A DNA stretch of 43,924 nt from Bacillota bacterium (GTDB lineage: Bacteria > Bacillota > JADQBR01), in assembly GCA_016278515.1 (NCBI GenBank), contig JADQBR010000096.1, forward strand, positions 1-43,924, in the 5' to 3' direction. A model generated the notes under the pieces. The model had not been told where the DNA came from, searched no databases, and saw nothing but the letters and a program-made list of their open reading frames with translations. Shown here one piece after another: positions 5,834 through 43,924 of this stretch; positions within the stretch are counted from its first letter, which is position 1, and each line of letters begins with the position of its first letter. A program made the translations under genes and the position numbers.

Positions 5834-7239
5834 TGATGTTTTCGTCTAAGCCAAAAGAATAATAGTGTTAGACCAGAGGCAGCACCTGTTAATGGCTTCC
5901 ATAAGTTAATTAGCCCTTTTCTTGTGCTTGGCGTTGTTACCTTTGTCGCATCTTTTGGAGGAGAGCTGTTATGTTCTTCCCCTTCATCTTTAATATCGGG
6001 AGAACCATTTGGGTCTTCTGAGCTTGTTTCAGGTTGGTTATTGGCGCTGAGTTCTTTCTTGCTTACCAAAAAGAAGCTTATTAATAGAGAGGCCAAGGCT
6101 ATGCCGCTTCCGCCCCAGAACATTGTTCCTTTGCCCAGCTCCAATAATTTGCTGTAAGTTGGGGGACCTGCGGCCACACCAAAAAAACGGACGGTGCCGT
6201 AGAGGGCAGTTATACCGCCGCGCTCTGCTAAGGGTGCGGCGCTGGTTACGGTGGTATTTACTGCCGGAAGGACAAGCCCTGTACCTGTCCCCATAATTAA
6301 AATTGCAATAAAGAATATAATATTAATTTTAAAGACAGATAAAATAATTAGTGCCAAAGACAGTACCGCCAACCCGCCGACGATAAAGGGTTTCATTAGG
6401 CCTGGGCTGTTTTTTAGCATTCTGCCAGAAACGAAGGAAGTTATGGACATGGCAAGTACCGGTCCGGCTAACGCAAAGCCTTTAATTACACCCTTCAAAC
6501 CGTATTCAACTTCAAGAATGTCTGACAGATATGAAAGAATGCCAAACAAGGTAAAGAGGACAATGCTGGCAGCTAAATAAGAGCCAATAAGAGACTTGCC
6601 GCTCTGGGAAAATACTTTTTTAATTCCTTGGAAATAATTTGCGAAAGAGTTATTTTTTTGTTTAGGCTTGGGTTCTTTTATTAGAAACCAGACTGCTAAG
6701 GCAATGGGGATGGCCAGTGCAGCATAAACGAAAAAAATGGCATACCAAAATAGTAATGCGATCAGGGAGCCCAAAATAGGGCTAATGACCTTACCCAGCC
6801 CGTTGGCTGCCTCTACCGAGCCTTGGGCCTGGCTTCTTTGATTACCGGTGAAGATGTCACTGACTAAAGCCATGGCGATTGGGCCGGTGCCAGCTGCGCC
6901 AATACCTTGTACAACTCTGCCGGCAAGGAGTAAAGGATAGGCTTGCTGTTGGTAAATGATTGGAGCAATTCCCGAAATAACTCCGCCAAATGCATATAAT
7001 ATCAAAGATGGAACTATAATTAGTTTTCTGCCGATTTTATCTGATAAAAATCCTAGAATAGGAATACATATTCCGGCTGGGATGGAAAACAGGGTGATGG
7101 TTAAGCCGACTTGAAATTGCGATATGTTCAAGGTTTTCTGCATTTCTGGAAATACGGGGATTAACATGGAGTTTCCTAAAACCATCAGTAAAGGAACTCC
7201 ACCTAAGGCAATTAATTGAATAATTGAATCTTTTTTCAT
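5830..7239 (-). CDS. MFS drug/metabolite exporter with C-terminal tail
   Basis: A 469-residue major facilitator superfamily transporter. It has about 12 helices in residues 8-400, with the DHA-type motif A (GFLSDKIGRKLIIVP) after helix two and the motif C-like segment GIGAAGTGPIAMAL. Such proteins are proton antiporters for drugs or small metabolites. Unusually, helix 12 is followed by a charged, Ser/Pro/Thr-rich linker of about 45 residues and one further hydrophobic segment ending FFWLRRKHH, giving a likely 13th helix. AAAGGAGG precedes the ATG. It is monocistronic and convergent with the YqhV-like gene. The substrate is not evident. Confidence 0.88.
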   Translation of the reverse strand: MKKDSIIQLIALGGVPLLMVLGNSMLIPVFPEMQKTLNISQFQVGLTITLFSIPAGICIPILGFLSDKIGRKLIIVPSLILYAFGGVISGIAPIIYQQQAYPLLLAGRVVQGIGAAGTGPIAMALVSDIFTGNQRSQAQGSVEAANGLGKVISPILGSLIALLFWYAIFFVYAALAIPIALAVWFLIKEPKPKQKNNSFANYFQGIKKVFSQSGKSLIGSYLAASIVLFTLFGILSYLSDILEVEYGLKGVIKGFALAGPVLAMSITSFVSGRMLKNSPGLMKPFIVGGLAVLSLALIILSVFKINIIFFIAILIMGTGTGLVLPAVNTTVTSAAPLAERGGITALYGTVRFFGVAAGPPTYSKLLELGKGTMFWGGSGIALASLLISFFLVSKKELSANNQPETSSEDPNGSPDIKDEGEEHNSSPPKDATKVTTPSTRKGLINLWKPLTGAASGLTLLFFWLRRKHH

Positions 7240-7397: not shown

Positions 7398-8249
7398 ATG
7401 ACAAAAATAAAGGGATCAAAGGCTTGGCAAGAGATATTCGACTTTCCGCTGCTGGGTAGGTTTGACAAACCGCGAAGCAATGGCATGACTATGATAATCG
7501 ATAAAGGTCTGGGGTTGACGGAAACACGGGAGATGTTAGATTTGGCTGCAGATTATATCGACTTTATTAAACTAGGTTTTGGCACATCGGCATTTTACTC
7601 GCAGGAATTATTAGAAGAAAAAATACGGATGGTCAGATCTTATAACGTTGATATTTTCCCGGGCGGTACTTTTTTAGAAGTCGCAATTCTTCAAACAAAG
7701 ATGCATGTATTTATTAAAAAAGCCAGAGCCTTGGGGTTCACCGCTTTAGAAGTTTCAGACGGTACAATTAATATCTCCCAACCTATCCGTACCTTAGCGA
7801 TTAAGGAAGGTTTAAATCAAGGCTTGAAAGTGTTAGGGGAAGTTGGTAAAAAGGACCCACGGGATATGGTGGAGACAGAGCGGATTTGTGAACAGATAGA
7901 GAAGGATTTGCTAGATGGTGCTTATAAAGTGATTGTTGAAGGAAGGGAATCAGGAAAAGGTGTTGTGATATATGACAGAAAAGGAGCAATAAAAGAGGAG
8001 GAACTAAACCGATTATTGAATAACATTCAAGATAAAAATAAGATTTTGTGGGAAGCTCCCATGAAAGACCAACAGCAAACGCTTATTAAGAGGTTTGGGC
8101 CTAATGTTAACTTGGGTAACGTTCAACCTAACGAGATATTGGCGTTAGAGGCGCTGAGGGTCGGCTTAAGGGGAGATACCTTGAGGGATTGCCTGAAAGC
8201 CAATGCGGTGTTAAACCCGCTGTATAAAGATACTGGCCAGATCGGATAA
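7398..8249 (+). CDS. comA: phosphosulfolactate synthase
   Basis: A 283-residue ComA-family enzyme (EC 4.4.1.19), which adds sulfite to phosphoenolpyruvate to make (R)-2-phospho-3-sulfolactate. Family segments are RSNGMTMIIDKGLG at the start, DYIDFIKLGFGTSA, FPGGTFLEVA, LGFTALEVSDGTINI and GEVGKKDP on the TIM-barrel strands. The ATG at 7398 with GGGG 11 nt upstream is preferred over a farther in-frame start at 7371; a TTG at 7395 is possible. It is followed by comB, so the first two steps toward coenzyme M or sulfolactate are present. No comC dehydrogenase or comDE is in the window. In Bacillus the same pair supplies sulfolactate to spores, which is the more likely role here. Confidence 0.93.
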   Translation: MTKIKGSKAWQEIFDFPLLGRFDKPRSNGMTMIIDKGLGLTETREMLDLAADYIDFIKLGFGTSAFYSQELLEEKIRMVRSYNVDIFPGGTFLEVAILQTKMHVFIKKARALGFTALEVSDGTINISQPIRTLAIKEGLNQGLKVLGEVGKKDPRDMVETERICEQIEKDLLDGAYKVIVEGRESGKGVVIYDRKGAIKEEELNRLLNNIQDKNKILWEAPMKDQQQTLIKRFGPNVNLGNVQPNEILALEALRVGLRGDTLRDCLKANAVLNPLYKDTGQIG

Positions 8250-9044: not shown

Positions 9045-9500
9045 ATGCCGCAAGTAAATTGGATAATAATGGTAATACTTATTCTCGGCATCATTGGTAA
9101 GTCTGATATTATTGCCGCTGCTGCAGCGATCTTACTGGTAATAGATTATGTGAATTTAGAGCGTCTGCTGCCGATTTTAGAGCGTAGAGGGTTAGAAATT
9201 GGTCTTTTGTTTTTGGTAATATCGGTGTTGGTTCCGTTTGCGGCTAACAAAGTGGCAGGGCGTGAAATAATAGCCTCTATTTTTTCAATACCAGGAGTAG
9301 TAGCTTTGGTCAGTGGTGCTATCGCGACAAGTTTAAATGGTAAAGGTCTGCAGATGTTGCAGAGCCGTCCTGAAATAATAATTGGATTGGTGTTTGGCTC
9401 CATAATAGGAATTGTCTTTTTTAAAGGGATACCTGTAGGTCCACTGATGGCAGGCGGTATAGCTGCATTGTTGTTACGTATCCTCGGACAATGGCCTTGA
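9045..9500 (+). CDS. UPF0756 (DUF441) membrane protein
   Basis: A 151-residue protein with four to five hydrophobic segments and the glycine-rich motifs of the UPF0756/DUF441 family (GKSDIIAAAAAILL, RRGLEIGLLFLVISVLVPFA, GSIIGIVFFKGIPVGPL, AGGIAALLL). These are inner-membrane proteins of unknown function. A CGGAGGGG ribosome binding site precedes the ATG. It stands 65 bp after comB and could be part of that transcript, but no functional link to sulfolactate is known. Confidence 0.85.
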   Translation: MPQVNWIIMVILILGIIGKSDIIAAAAAILLVIDYVNLERLLPILERRGLEIGLLFLVISVLVPFAANKVAGREIIASIFSIPGVVALVSGAIATSLNGKGLQMLQSRPEIIIGLVFGSIIGIVFFKGIPVGPLMAGGIAALLLRILGQWP

Positions 9501-9657
9501 AATTTAAAATTCTTTAGCTTGGGTTAGTAATTATCATTTGTTTTTTAAAATAAGGAGGTTTTTCCTTTTTAAAAATAGTATAAAGACTAAATAATGATTG
9601 TTTAGAATTACCTAAGGTAGCAGCAATAGGGTAGGTAAGAAGCTAAGGGTGGTCTCT

Positions 9658-9849
9658 ATGTATAAGTATCAGGCTATTATTGTCTTTTTCGATAAACATA
9701 GCGCCGAAAGAACGGTGCGGAAAATTATAATGGCAAAAAACAAAAAAGAAGCCGAAAAAGAATTAAATAAATTAGGCAAAATTAAAGACATTATCTGGGA
9801 GAGTGTCCCTGTAGATAACATGGACGATAATCAATTGGAGTTGTTTTGA
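9658..9849 (+). CDS. small cytosolic protein of unknown function
   Basis: A 63-residue protein, basic in the middle and acidic at the end (DNMDDNQLELF). The pattern YKYQAIIVFFDKHSAERTVRKIIM, then AKNKKEAEKEL, suggests a beta strand and amphipathic helices, but I do not recognise a family. The ATG at 9658 has AAGGGTGG upstream and is preferred over a GTG at 9649. A strong terminator follows at once. The 150 bp before it hold a short AAGGA/TCCTT stem near 9553-9569 and no other gene. Confidence 0.6.
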   Translation: MYKYQAIIVFFDKHSAERTVRKIIMAKNKKEAEKELNKLGKIKDIIWESVPVDNMDDNQLELF

Positions 9850-9858
9850 CAAAATGTT

Positions 9859-9897
9859 GGCCGGCAAAGGAAAAGCAATTCCTCAGCCGGCCTTTTT
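9859..9897. terminator. intrinsic terminator
   Basis: GGCCGGC at 9859-9865 pairs with GCCGGCC at 9886-9892, with AGGAA/TTCCT extending the stem inside and five T following. It separates the small plus-strand gene from the convergent cyclophilin gene. Confidence 0.85.
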
Positions 9898-9903
9898 CTG
9901 TGA

Positions 9904-10335
9904 TTATTCTTCTGTTATGGTTACCTTATTCATTATATCGCCTTGTTGAGTTTGGTCCACTACTTCCATGCCTTTTATCACTTTACCAAAAACCGTATGT
10001 ACACCGTCCAGATGCGGTTGAGGTTCATATGCGATAAAGAACTGACTGCCGCCAGTATTGGGGCCTCGATGGGCCATAGACAAGGAACCTCGCCCATGTT
10101 TGTGAGGATTGTCTTTGGTTTCGCATGGAATGGTATAACCTGGGCCACCAGAACCATTGCCGTTAGGGCATCCGCCTTGAGCCACAAAGCCTTCAATTAT
10201 CCTATGAAAGGTTAGTCCATCATAAAATCCTTCTTTGATTAGTTTTTCGAAATTATCGACTGTAATAGGTGCTTCTTTGTCAAACAGTTCGATTTCCACA
10301 GTTCCTTTGTCCATTTCAATGACTGCTTTTTTCAA
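9904..10335 (-). CDS. cyclophilin-type peptidyl-prolyl cis-trans isomerase
   Basis: A 143-residue single-domain cyclophilin (EC 5.2.1.8). It begins directly with [18 protein letters not shown] without a signal peptide, so it acts in the cytosol. Active-site segments are [14 protein letters not shown] (catalytic Arg in FHR), [25 protein letters not shown] and [22 protein letters not shown] lies before the ATG and a good promoter lies at 10366-10394. It is monocistronic. Confidence 0.95.
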
Positions 10336-10365
10336 TATATACTCCTCCTTTGAGTCTTTCCTAAG

Positions 10366-10394
10366 ATTGTATCATAAGGAAACTATTTTACCAA
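10366..10394 (-). promoter_or_regulatory. sigma-A promoter for the cyclophilin gene
   Basis: On the minus strand TTGGTA (10394-10389) and TACAAT (10371-10366) are separated by 17 bp, and the start would lie about 25 nt before the ATG. Confidence 0.65.
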
Positions 10395-10457
10395 AAGAAT
10401 TACATAGGTCTTTTAGAAGGTGGAAATAATATTACTATAAAAAAAGGAGGTGGCTTA

Positions 10458-10577
10458 ATGCGGGTGGACCAGCCAACTATGCCGGAAATTCTCCAACCTG
10501 ATCAAGTAACTCACCCCGAAGAGCCTGTGGAAGTACCTGATGAGCCTTTCCCATCTGAAATAAACGACCCTAAATAA
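10458..10577 (+). CDS. 39-residue acidic proline-rich small protein
   Basis: An ATG at 10458 follows an excellent AAAAAGGAGG site (10441-10450). The product has 39 residues, nine of them proline, with about ten Glu/Asp and a PEEPVEVPDEPFPSE core. It has no hydrophobic segment and no cysteine and is probably unstructured. I recognise no family. The strong ribosome binding site and a stem-loop right after the stop argue that it is a real small gene. Confidence 0.55.
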   Translation: MRVDQPTMPEILQPDQVTHPEEPVEVPDEPFPSEINDPK

Positions 10578-10589
10578 AGATGCATAAGC

Positions 10590-10629
10590 AACAGGCCGCC
10601 GTTAATTTAAGAGCGGTTTGTTTGCTTTT
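10590..10629 (+). terminator. probable terminator of the 39-codon gene
   Basis: AACAGGCCGC at 10590-10599 can pair fully with GCGGTTTGTT at 10613-10622 using two G-U pairs, followed by a T-rich stretch. The remainder of 10630-10737 holds no recognisable feature. Confidence 0.5.
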
Positions 10630-10737
10630 GCTTAAATATTACGCCATCACTTAAAAGAACGGATAATCATTATGGCAGAAATGGAGTAAACTTACTAAAA
10701 ATGGAATAAGAGCAAGATATTATTATGCTAGATTTTC

Positions 10738-10766
10738 TTGTTAAAAGGAGGAATTAGCTCTATAAT
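10738..10766 (+). promoter_or_regulatory. sigma-A promoter for the membrane protein-CvpA operon
   Basis: TTGTTA at 10738-10743 and TATAAT at 10761-10766 are 17 bp apart. The start near 10773 implies an untranslated leader of about 144 nt before the ATG at 10917. Confidence 0.65.
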
Positions 10767-10787
10767 TTAAATATAGATAAATAAGCA

Positions 10788-10898
10788 CTTCCCGGCGGGA
10801 GAGTATACTTTAAGTAGGGGTTTGCTTAAAAACCGTAATTTTGAGCCATTTATTAGTCTAACCCTCTTAGTTAGGACATATATTTTAGCAAGTCCTAA
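10788..10898 (+). promoter_or_regulatory. structured 5' leader with competing stems
   Basis: Several small inverted repeats occur: CTTCCCGGCGGGAG near 10788-10802, GGTTT/AAACC near 10818-10833, and GTTAGGAC (10870-10877) with GTCCTAA (10892-10898). The last arm copy resembles GTCTAAC at 10856-10862, which could pair with the same middle segment, so two mutually exclusive hairpins are possible just before the AAGGAGG site. No known riboswitch was recognised. Confidence 0.35.
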
Positions 10899-10916
10899 AA
10901 TCTAAGGAGGTAAGTA

Positions 10917-11204
10917 ATGGAAGCATTGCAAGGATTAATTTTTATGGCTCTGGTGGTTGAGTTTTTGACTGCGGTTTTTAAAAACCTGATTAGTGACCGT
11001 TATACCCAGATTGTCTCAGTGTCGATTGGCATACTTTTGTGCACTGTGTACCAGTTAGGCATATTTTCTGCCATGGGACTTGAAACCAACTTTCTCATAG
11101 TGGATTACGTTTTATCAGGGGTAATCGTATCTAGAGGGTCTAACGCGGTTTATGAACTAGTCGGGAAAAGAGCCAGGGAAGCACGTGCTCAAAGAAAGCG
11201 ATGA
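10917..11204 (+). CDS. small integral membrane protein
   Basis: A 95-residue protein with three hydrophobic segments (about 5-22, 32-52 and 58-74) and a strongly basic tail (GKRAREARAQRKR), which by the positive-inside rule should be cytosolic. The size and layout resemble small holin-like proteins, but no phage genes are near and I do not assign a family. An AAGGAGG site lies 7 nt before the ATG. The gene is 7 nt upstream of cvpA and clearly co-transcribed with it. Confidence 0.65.
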   Translation: MEALQGLIFMALVVEFLTAVFKNLISDRYTQIVSVSIGILLCTVYQLGIFSAMGLETNFLIVDYVLSGVIVSRGSNAVYELVGKRAREARAQRKR

Positions 11205-11211
11205 TTAAATA

Positions 11212-11877
11212 ATGAACTACTTGGATATTGGTATCCTTATATTACTAATTCTTGGAGCTGTTCGTGGTTACCGGCGGGGGCTATTGAATGCTTTAACCGG
11301 CTTAGTAGGTATTATCTTTGGAGCTGCAATAGCCTCTAGCTGGGCGCGGCCAACGGCAGAGTATGTAGATGCCCAATACAGAATAACCAATAAAATTTCT
11401 GTTTGGTTGTTGGACAAGCTACCGGATATTGTCAGCATTGAAAGCTCTAATGATAATGGCCTGTTAGCAGGTCTGTTTCAAGCGCTGACTGATAAAATAA
11501 TGGCTGAATCCGCTGTCGTATCCAACGTGGGAGTTTTATATAATATTAGTTTTACGTTGTTGGTGATACTGGTATTTTTAGTTTTGATGTTTATTGCAGC
11601 TTTACTGTTAAGGCTAGTTGCCGTCTTAATAACAAGGACTATTAAGCATACGGTATTTGGCGGGGTTAACCGATTGGGCGGATTAATAGTAGGTGTTGGT
11701 ACGACGACGATTGTGATAGGCCTGATCTTAATGGTTATTGCCCCATTTGTAACGGTTGGGGCTTCTGCTGGTGCTGACGGTATTTTTGGTAGTGTTGGTT
11801 TGTTAGTAAACACTTCGGTGCTTGCCCCAGAGATAGCTGGAGTGTTCCAACTGCTTCTTGATAAGTTCTTCTTTTAA
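11212..11877 (+). CDS. CvpA family membrane protein
   Basis: A 221-residue CvpA-family protein with four to five transmembrane segments. The N-terminal signature is YLDIGILILLILGAVRGYRR, with RGLLNALTGLVG and the later NRLGGLIVGVG. CvpA is linked to colicin V production and envelope integrity in proteobacteria; in Firmicutes the role is unclear. The start has no strong ribosome binding site and lies just after the preceding stop, suggesting translational coupling. Confidence 0.85.
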   Translation: MNYLDIGILILLILGAVRGYRRGLLNALTGLVGIIFGAAIASSWARPTAEYVDAQYRITNKISVWLLDKLPDIVSIESSNDNGLLAGLFQALTDKIMAESAVVSNVGVLYNISFTLLVILVFLVLMFIAALLLRLVAVLITRTIKHTVFGGVNRLGGLIVGVGTTTIVIGLILMVIAPFVTVGASAGADGIFGSVGLLVNTSVLAPEIAGVFQLLLDKFFF

Positions 11878-13447: not shown

Positions 13448-13492
13448 ATGGCGAACATAGAATGCAGAAGTGAGGTGTGCGATGATGACTAA
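13448..13492 (+). CDS. possible 14-codon upstream ORF overlapping the selD start
   Basis: ATG at 13448 has AGGAGA 10 nt upstream and encodes MANIECRSEVCDDD, with two cysteines, ending in TAA after running across both selD start codons in another frame. It could couple or tune selD translation. It may also be chance, since only 14 codons are involved. Confidence 0.25.
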   Translation: MANIECRSEVCDDD

Positions 13493-14516
13493 ATTTAAAC
13501 TGACGCGATGTGCTTCGGCTGCCGGTTGAGCAGCAAAAATTGGTCCAGGAACCTTGCAGGATATATTAAAGAACTTGCCACAGGTTCAGGATCCCAAGCT
13601 GCTGGTCAGCGGCTCAACGATGGACGATGCGGGTGTATATCAAATAAACGAAGAACAGGCTCTGGTACAAACTGTTGATTTTTTAACTCCTATGGTAGAC
13701 GATCCATATGTATTCGGGCAGGTGGCTGCCGCAAACGCACTAAGTGATGTTTATGCAATGGGGGGTAAGCCCTTAACTGCACTTAATATTAGTGCATTTG
13801 ACTTAGATATGGATACGGTTATTTTGCAAAAAATACTTGCCGGAGGGGCAGCGACACTGCAAGAGGCAGGGTGTCTACTTGTTGGGGGCCATACGATCCA
13901 AGATAAAGAGCCCAAATATGGATTGGCTGTTACAGGCATAGTGCATCCCAAGGAGATAATTACCAATGCCGGGGCGGCTCCCAATGCTGCATTGCTGCTT
14001 ACTAAGCCTCTGGGCAGCGGCATTTTAAGCACTGCGTTAAAAGGGGACTTGCTGCAGGAAAATGCTTTAGAGGAGCTTACTCAGGTTATGACGACTCTAA
14101 ACCACCAAGCCTCGGAAGTGATGCAGCGAATAGGAGTGCTCGCTGCTACGGATGTAACCGGTTTTGGACTGCTGGGCCATGCTTGGGAAATATGCGCCAG
14201 CAGTGACGTAGGAATGGAATTGTACTTTAATAAAATACCATTAATGTCAGGGGTGGTAGATTTTGCAAATATGGGTGTTATTCCTGGTGGAGCGTATACG
14301 AACAGGCGCTATCTGGAAGACAAGGTGATATTTAATGGCATTTCTGAAGCAGGTCAGATAATTATGACAGACCCTCAGACATCAGGCGGATTGCTGATAG
14401 TAGTGGAAGAAAAGAAGTTAAATAGTCTCGTAAATGAATTGCGGTTGAAAGGTGTTGAAGGCGCGGTTATTGGGAAAACCACTGATAAACCAGGCGTTAT
14501 TAATGTAATAAGTTAG
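13482..14516 (+). CDS. selD: selenide, water dikinase (selenophosphate synthetase), selenocysteine-containing
   Basis: SelD (EC 2.7.9.3) makes selenophosphate from selenide and ATP, the selenium donor for Sec-tRNA and selenouridine. The gene opens at ATG 13482 (or the adjacent ATG 13485) with GAGGTG upstream and is interrupted by TGA at 13527-13529. The context CASAAG-TGA-AAKIGPG is the SelD active-site motif, in which that position is Cys or Sec, followed by the essential Lys. The TGA is therefore read as selenocysteine 16 in a 344-residue protein. Downstream segments DDAGVY, TVDFLTPMVDDPY, ANALSDVYAMGG, LVGGHTI, TDVTGFGLLGHAWE and TDPQTSGGLL are all intact. A hairpin directly after the TGA can act as SECIS. 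It is 10 nt upstream of yedF. Confidence 0.95.
13533..13557 (+). promoter_or_regulatory. candidate bacterial SECIS hairpin in selD
   Basis: Just after the TGA codon, GCAA (13533-13536) pairs with TTGC (13554-13557) and GGT (13542-13544) with ACC (13551-13553), leaving loop CCAGGA and an asymmetric bulge. Position inside the coding region 3-30 nt past the UGA fits bacterial SelB-recognised elements. The fold is by eye only. Confidence 0.5.
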
Positions 14517-14526
14517 GGGGATTACA

Positions 14527-15114
14527 ATGAGAGATACTGTTGATGCAAGAGGGATGGACTGCCCACAGCCTGTTATCATAACGAAGAATGCATTGGAGAA
14601 AATTTCTGATGGGGAGTTGGTAACTATAGTTGACAATGAGGTTGCCCGTGATAATGTCATAAAACTTGCTAAAAGCATGAGCATGAAGGTAACTGTCGAC
14701 CAACAACAGGATGAATATTATATCCGCATTAATAAAGATGAGTCTTTGCCTCTCAGTTCTGGCTTGGACGTGGATGACAAAGTGGCTGTAGTTTTATTTG
14801 GGAATAATGTTTTAGGTACAGGCAACGAGGAACTGGGTGAAACACTGATAAAGAGTTTCTTCTATACCATGGTGGAAAGTGACCGGAAACCAAAGATATT
14901 GATGTTTATCAATAAAGGAGTTTATCTCACATGTGAGGAATCGCCGGTATTGGCTCAGTTAATGGCATTAAAAGAGGCCGGAGTTGATATTCTTTCTTGC
15001 GGAACTTGTCTGGATTACTATCATTTAAAAGATAAGTTATGCGTAGGGGATATAACTAACATGTATACTATTCTTGAAAACTTAATGAATGGAGAGCGTG
15101 TTTTGACACTGTAG
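14527..15114 (+). CDS. yedF: selenium metabolism protein YedF
   Basis: A 195-residue two-domain protein. Residues 1-75 are a TusA/SirA-like sulfur carrier domain with the active Cys12 in DARGMDCPQPVI. Residues about 90-190 are a DsrE/F-like domain (KVAVVLFGNNVLGTG, then SCGTCLDYY with a CxxC). This fusion is typical of selenium-using bacteria and accompanies selD, so it probably handles selenium or sulfane sulfur for selenophosphate synthesis; the exact step is unproven. It follows selD after 10 nt with a GGGGG site, and the two form an operon. Confidence 0.93.
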   Translation: MRDTVDARGMDCPQPVIITKNALEKISDGELVTIVDNEVARDNVIKLAKSMSMKVTVDQQQDEYYIRINKDESLPLSSGLDVDDKVAVVLFGNNVLGTGNEELGETLIKSFFYTMVESDRKPKILMFINKGVYLTCEESPVLAQLMALKEAGVDILSCGTCLDYYHLKDKLCVGDITNMYTILENLMNGERVLTL

Positions 15115-35134: not shown

Positions 35135-35875
35135 TCACACCCCCACATCTTTAAATTCACCTAATGGATATTTGGGAATCATATTATTTTCTAACCATTT
35201 AACTGCTTCTAACGGTGTTAACTTCCAATTTGTAGGGCAGGTGGCCAGGATCTCCACTAAGGAAAACCCCTTGTTTTCTATTTGGTAGCGAAAAGCTTTT
35301 TGGATGCTTCTAGCTGCTTTTCTTATCTGGGCAGGCTTATGCACAGAGACTCTGCTTAGGTACACTGGCCCATCCAATGTGCTTAACATTTCTGTGACTT
35401 TAATAGGGTAGCCTGCTTCTGGCTGGGTACGCCCTTTAGGGGTTGTTGACGTAACCTGGCCGATTAATGAAGTGGGAGCCATTTGACCACCAGTCATGCC
35501 GTAGCAGGCGTTGTTGACAAATATAACAGTAATGTTTTCTCCTCTAGCTGCTGCATGAACTATTTCTGCTGTACCAATTGAGGCTAGGTCACCATCTCCT
35601 TGGTAGCTAAACACTATACTGCCGGGGAGTACTCTTTTTATGCCTGTAGCTACGGCCGGTGCCCTGCCGTGGGCAGCTTGCTGCATATCTATGTTGAAAT
35701 AGTTATAGGCTAGAACTGAACAACCCACGGAGGCAACACCAACTGTATTCTCGCGTACATTATGGAAGTCTAAGGCTTCTGCAACCAGACGGTGAATAAT
35801 ACCATGGCTGCAGCCGGGGCAATAATGAAACTGTTTATCTGTTAGCGAACTTGGTATTTTAGGAACAGCATTCAT
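35135..35875 (-). CDS. 2-oxoacid:ferredoxin oxidoreductase beta subunit (TPP-binding)
   Basis: A 246-residue beta subunit that binds thiamine diphosphate and an iron-sulfur cluster. It has [17 protein letters not shown] near the start with the cluster cysteines C19 and C22, [15 protein letters not shown], the TPP motif [12 protein letters not shown] and [17 protein letters not shown]. Its ATG lies 17 nt inside the end of the alpha gene, so translation is tightly coupled. Confidence 0.95.
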
Positions 35876-43869: not shown

Positions 43870-43924
43870 GAGCCATTAGCTCAGTTGGTAGAGCACCTGA
43901 CTTTTAATCAGGGTGTCGAAGGTT
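43870..43924 (+). tRNA. tRNA-Lys (UUU), 5' part, cut by the window end
   Basis: GAGCCAT starts the acceptor stem, followed by the D arm GCTC-AGTTGGTA-GAGC and the anticodon arm CCTGA-CTTTTAA-TCAGG with anticodon TTT at 43903-43905. The T arm begins (GAAGGTT) as the window ends, so the 3' half is outside. It is the first gene of a possible tRNA cluster. Confidence 0.95.

Follow-up and report, generated by a model that had tools for sequence, protein, structure and literature searches.

Gene content and reading frame of selD1

The window, the whole 43,924-nucleotide stretch of DNA analysed here, harbors selD1 (13482..14516, forward strand), a gene for selenide water dikinase (selenophosphate synthetase). 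Its frame runs from ATG 13482 to TAG 14516, and the sole internal stop is the TGA at 13527-13529, codon 16. The frame and the alignment place this codon at the catalytic residue, and with the TGA read as selenocysteine (Sec16) the gene is predicted to encode a selenoprotein of 344 aa, or 343 if translation starts at a second in-frame ATG, 13485. A Shine-Dalgarno-like GAGGTG on the same strand (13472..13477) is followed after 4 nt by ATG 13482 and after 7 nt by ATG 13485, and the second ATG may therefore be the true start.

Read in this way, SelD1 scores 384 bits against TIGR00476 (cut-off 125), covering profile positions 1-309 of 311, and 338.6 bits against NF002098. Sec16 lies in the context ...LTRCASAAG-U-AAKIGPGTLQDIL..., which contains the UxxK motif, a catalytic Cys or Sec followed by Lys (U16-A-A-K19). 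The best match with a solved structure is Aquifex SelD (chain 2yye), from a lineage distant from that of the host; residue 16 aligns with its active-site Cys, SSG-C-AAKVGPG in Aquifex corresponding to AAG-U-AAKIGPG in SelD1. The initial annotation had placed the TGA at the catalytic Cys/Sec of SelD, with both flanks intact, and was borne out on each point by this alignment, by the profile match of the whole 344 aa and by the codons of the relatives described below. It had also expected standard gene callers to begin the gene at TTG 13554. A bacterial-code listing of open reading frames gives exactly that, a truncated frame of 320 aa (13554..14516, forward strand) that has lost the active site. 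The consequence is a matter of annotation, in that the active site of SelD1 is dropped by a standard gene caller.

Directly downstream of selD1 is yedF (14527..15114, forward strand; TIGR03527, 218.8 bits), which encodes a sulfurtransferase-like selenium metabolism protein, and this order is kept in both sister genomes. A gene for an M18 aminopeptidase lies upstream. At the far end of the window, a tRNA gene (43870-43924; Rfam RF00005, 41.5 bits) is cut by the end of the contig.

Conservation of the TGA and the selenium machinery

SelD was found in 198 of the 299 genomes sampled from the phylum, and among the matches listed nearly all SelDs contain exactly one TGA. The codon aligned to the TGA of selD1 was compared across 84 SelD loci, drawn from 80 named contigs, the window's genome and its two sister genomes, where at least one genome enters twice; the codon is TGA in 65, TGC in 12, TGT in 7 and no other codon in any. 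Homologues with a different stop position would have counted against the initial annotation, but the relatives have the TGA at the equivalent codon, and so do both sister genomes, the other two members of the same family. Sec-containing SelD is the norm in this phylum, and the finding at selD1 is an ordinary one, an arrangement common and long known in clostridia-like bacteria. Among prokaryotic selenoprotein families, SelD ranks second in breadth of distribution (PMC13188914), and its Sec-containing form has long been known (PMC13188914, PMC1794560, PMC4561486). In a 2015 reference set, Sec-containing proteins made up 19% of prokaryotic SelDs and the Sec position was always the same (PMC4561486). 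SelD1 shares with the bacterial Sec-SelDs the family TIGR00476, the Sec position and the UxxK motif, and the protein shows no difference from them.

The prediction that selA, selB and selC exist elsewhere in the genome was confirmed. Genes for SelA (620 bits) and SelB (394 bits) are clustered with tRNA-Sec on another contig (C99:34330-37770), and the tRNA scores 71 bits (gathering threshold 47) and has a UCA anticodon according to ARAGORN. Both sister genomes also encode SelB. The genome of the window further encodes SelU; the organism combines the Sec trait with the selenouridine trait. Two formate dehydrogenase genes (fdhA), on contigs C131 and C155 (loci L122 and L127), have a TGA at the UHS motif. 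In both of these Sec-type genes, GGUCU is found at nt 22-26 after the UGA, a sequence that matches the loop of the E. coli fdhF SECIS. When codon usage was scanned for additional genes interrupted by TGA, position 35137 of the window was the only one flagged, the scan being strict enough to miss selD1 itself; this position was taken to be a normal stop codon separating two neighbouring genes.

The standard genetic code assigns TGA as a stop, and the assembly that contains the window is a draft in 167 contigs; both points would be compatible with selD1 being a pseudogene, or containing a sequencing error, with the TGA as a real stop. However, this stop hits the single catalytic codon among 344, it recurs at the same site in both sister genomes and most relatives, the remainder of the frame is intact and the Sec machinery is complete, which together make decay or error extremely unlikely. 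It is equally hard to credit that translation begins at TTG 13554 and yields a SelD-like protein devoid of the active-site loop. Mechanical calling of open reading frames gives this start, but the residues upstream of codon 25 are conserved with relatives, and the Shine-Dalgarno-like GAGGTG stands ahead of ATG 13482 and ATG 13485. An in-frame UGA within a conserved gene could also result from genome-wide reassignment of UGA, or from a suppressor tRNA that inserts another residue. Against this, the other examined genes lack internal TGA codons, known selenoprotein families excepted; the genome encodes SelB and a dedicated tRNA-Sec; and the relatives that lack the TGA have Cys, the usual substitute for Sec. 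The probability of such recoding is accordingly very small. SelD1 is almost certainly a bona fide Sec-containing selenophosphate synthetase, where Sec insertion and catalysis are attributed to it from what is known of the family.

SelD produces selenophosphate, and the Sec or Cys of its N-terminal loop is catalytic. Sec-tRNA is delivered by SelB at a UGA that is accompanied by a downstream hairpin. The gene, the position of its codon, its conservation and neighbourhood and the machinery of the genome are direct observations, and family knowledge adds to them a probable role for selD1 in which Sec is inserted, residue 16 is catalytic and a SECIS element functions downstream. The ribosome would read UGA 13527-13529 as selenocysteine with the SelB, tRNA-Sec and SelA of the host, directed by an adjoining downstream RNA hairpin that is probably extended in this family. 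SelD1 would turn selenide and ATP into selenophosphate, with Sec16 and Lys19, in a flexible N-terminal loop, predicted to handle the selenide. The selenophosphate would supply SelA, for Sec-tRNA and hence for SelD itself, FdhA and others, and would also supply SelU.

RNA structure downstream of the UGA

Other clostridial Sec-SelDs have a compact hairpin of 5-6 bp at approximately nt 15-29 after the U of the UGA, for example GGGUCC-GG-GGACCC, and post-UGA structure is on average stronger in Sec than in Cys selD genes (mean z -1.52 vs -0.53). In selD1 this site is occupied by a degenerate short SECIS-like hairpin, GGU-CCAGGA-ACC (13542..13553, forward strand), which has three pairs (GGU/ACC), lacks a G at loop positions 1 and 2 and is not better than synonymous shuffles. 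Essentially no short hairpin is found at the usual site in the sister genomes, and the fold of the 54 nt after the UGA of selD1 is no better than shuffles (z +1.26). A 5-bp consensus hairpin, with 21 SelDs placed in one register, showed no excess covariation, and the best register varies among species. Under the bSECIS model as given in PMC13188914, which has an energy limit of -7.5 kcal/mol, the best hairpin in selD1 reaches -2.4 kcal/mol and falls outside the model. Because a subset of bSECIS elements fail the published model (PMC13188914), this failure alone does not remove selD1 from the selenoproteins.

With the canonical short hairpin reduced to a degenerate form in selD1, the better candidate is a long hairpin from the UGA (13527..13608, forward strand), proposed as an extended SECIS on the basis of its stability relative to synonymous shuffles. 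It consists of three helices, 13527-13535/13600-13608, 13540-13552/13583-13596 and 13556-13560/13574-13578, and was compared with the equivalent segments of the two sister genomes (G001 and G002; loci L025 and L035). Folding energies for the 78 nt that start at the UGA are -27.3 kcal/mol in the window's genome (G000), -30.5 in G002 and -33.3 in G001. Against synonymous shuffles, the corresponding z values are -3.40, -3.15 and -1.78, and none of 300 shuffles was as stable as the fold of the window's genome, where it should be kept in mind that the 78 nt length was chosen after shorter windows failed and that the p-values are somewhat flattered. Among 23 windows along the gene, this fold ranks 1 in the window's genome and in G002, and 3 in G001. 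A common three-helix fold of the three sequences pairs 88% of cells, compared with at most 55% for slid versions. In the same three sequences, covariation amounted to one pair changed on both sides, which did not exceed the shuffle control. The hairpin described in the initial annotation as SECIS-like is therefore sustained in part: the short element has 3 bp and fails the bSECIS rules, whereas an extended fold of 76-84 nt is significant in the window. That the SECIS of selD1 is an extended, family-specific hairpin is likely but unproven. In this respect the three-genome family appears to differ from other bacterial Sec-SelDs, its downstream hairpin looking extended instead of short.

A second Sec-type SelD and its link to tsoY

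The genome contains a second TGA-bearing selD, selD2 (C162:15545-16591, reverse strand), whose product is 44% identical to SelD1. Its surroundings were analysed as locus L115 (C162:6001-21335), in which selD2 occupies 9542-10591 on the reverse strand. The same strand carries a DsrE-like gene (9191-9511), tsoY (from 8754) and a NifS-like cysteine desulfurase gene (6072-7220), and a LysR gene is located on the forward strand (10694-11602). The tsoY gene has a TGA of its own at 7789-7791 and scores 568 bits against NF047643 when this TGA is read through; TsoY was described by Haft and Tolstoy in 2025 (as cited in PMC13188914). The LysR protein comes near the selenium-metabolism LysR model, with 245 bits, just under the cut-off of 250. 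C162 also carries selO. Contamination was considered as the source of selD2 and rejected; the tetranucleotide profile of C162 compares with that of the window at 0.938, pieces of the window compare among themselves at 0.92-0.93, and similar selD pairs recur in ten further genomes.

Close relatives of SelD2 (61-71% identical) occur in those ten other genomes of the 299-genome sample, all with TGA, and every SelD2 genome has another selD (11 of 11). In the tree, the eleven SelD2s group in a single clade, separate from the eleven first-copy SelDs (support 100/99), and one unassigned SelD from G230 falls inside the SelD2 clade. Near selD2, LysR is found in 11 of 11 genomes, tsoY in 8, NifS in at least 4 and DsrE in 3. 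Across the sample, tsoY is present in 11 of 299 genomes, 8 of them shared with the SelD2 set vs 0.4 expected, a significance that relatedness within families inflates. The distance between selD2 and tsoY in these eight genomes ranges from 46 to 6518 bases. SelD2 and tsoY are both absent from the sister genomes; the genes may have been acquired by transfer or may have been lost in the sister genomes.

This association suggests that SelD2 serves the TsoY cassette. A fuller reading would join two elements: in the three-genome family, an extended SECIS of approximately 80 nt that begins at the UGA, and a separate SelD2 clade that travels with TsoY, LysR and, in many cases, genes of the NifS-like and DsrE-like types, the whole forming a selenium cassette that supplies its own selenophosphate. 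We consider the chances of this combination to be evenly balanced. Linkage of a Sec-SelD2 to tsoY would help to reveal the role of TsoY and why a cell keeps two self-dependent selenophosphate synthetases.

Any novelty lies beside selD1, in the second selD; it is unusual for a genome to carry a second Sec-type selD. A 2005 report described Photobacterium profundum as the sole prokaryote with a pair of selD genes, one encoding Sec and the other Cys (PMC1273633). The genome described here also has two selD genes, but both carry Sec, and the second clusters with the selenoprotein gene tsoY. Three other genomes of the sample (G090, G004 and G146) have two TGA-bearing selD genes each, which the tree places outside the tsoY-linked clade, indicating that two Sec-SelDs per genome arose more than once.
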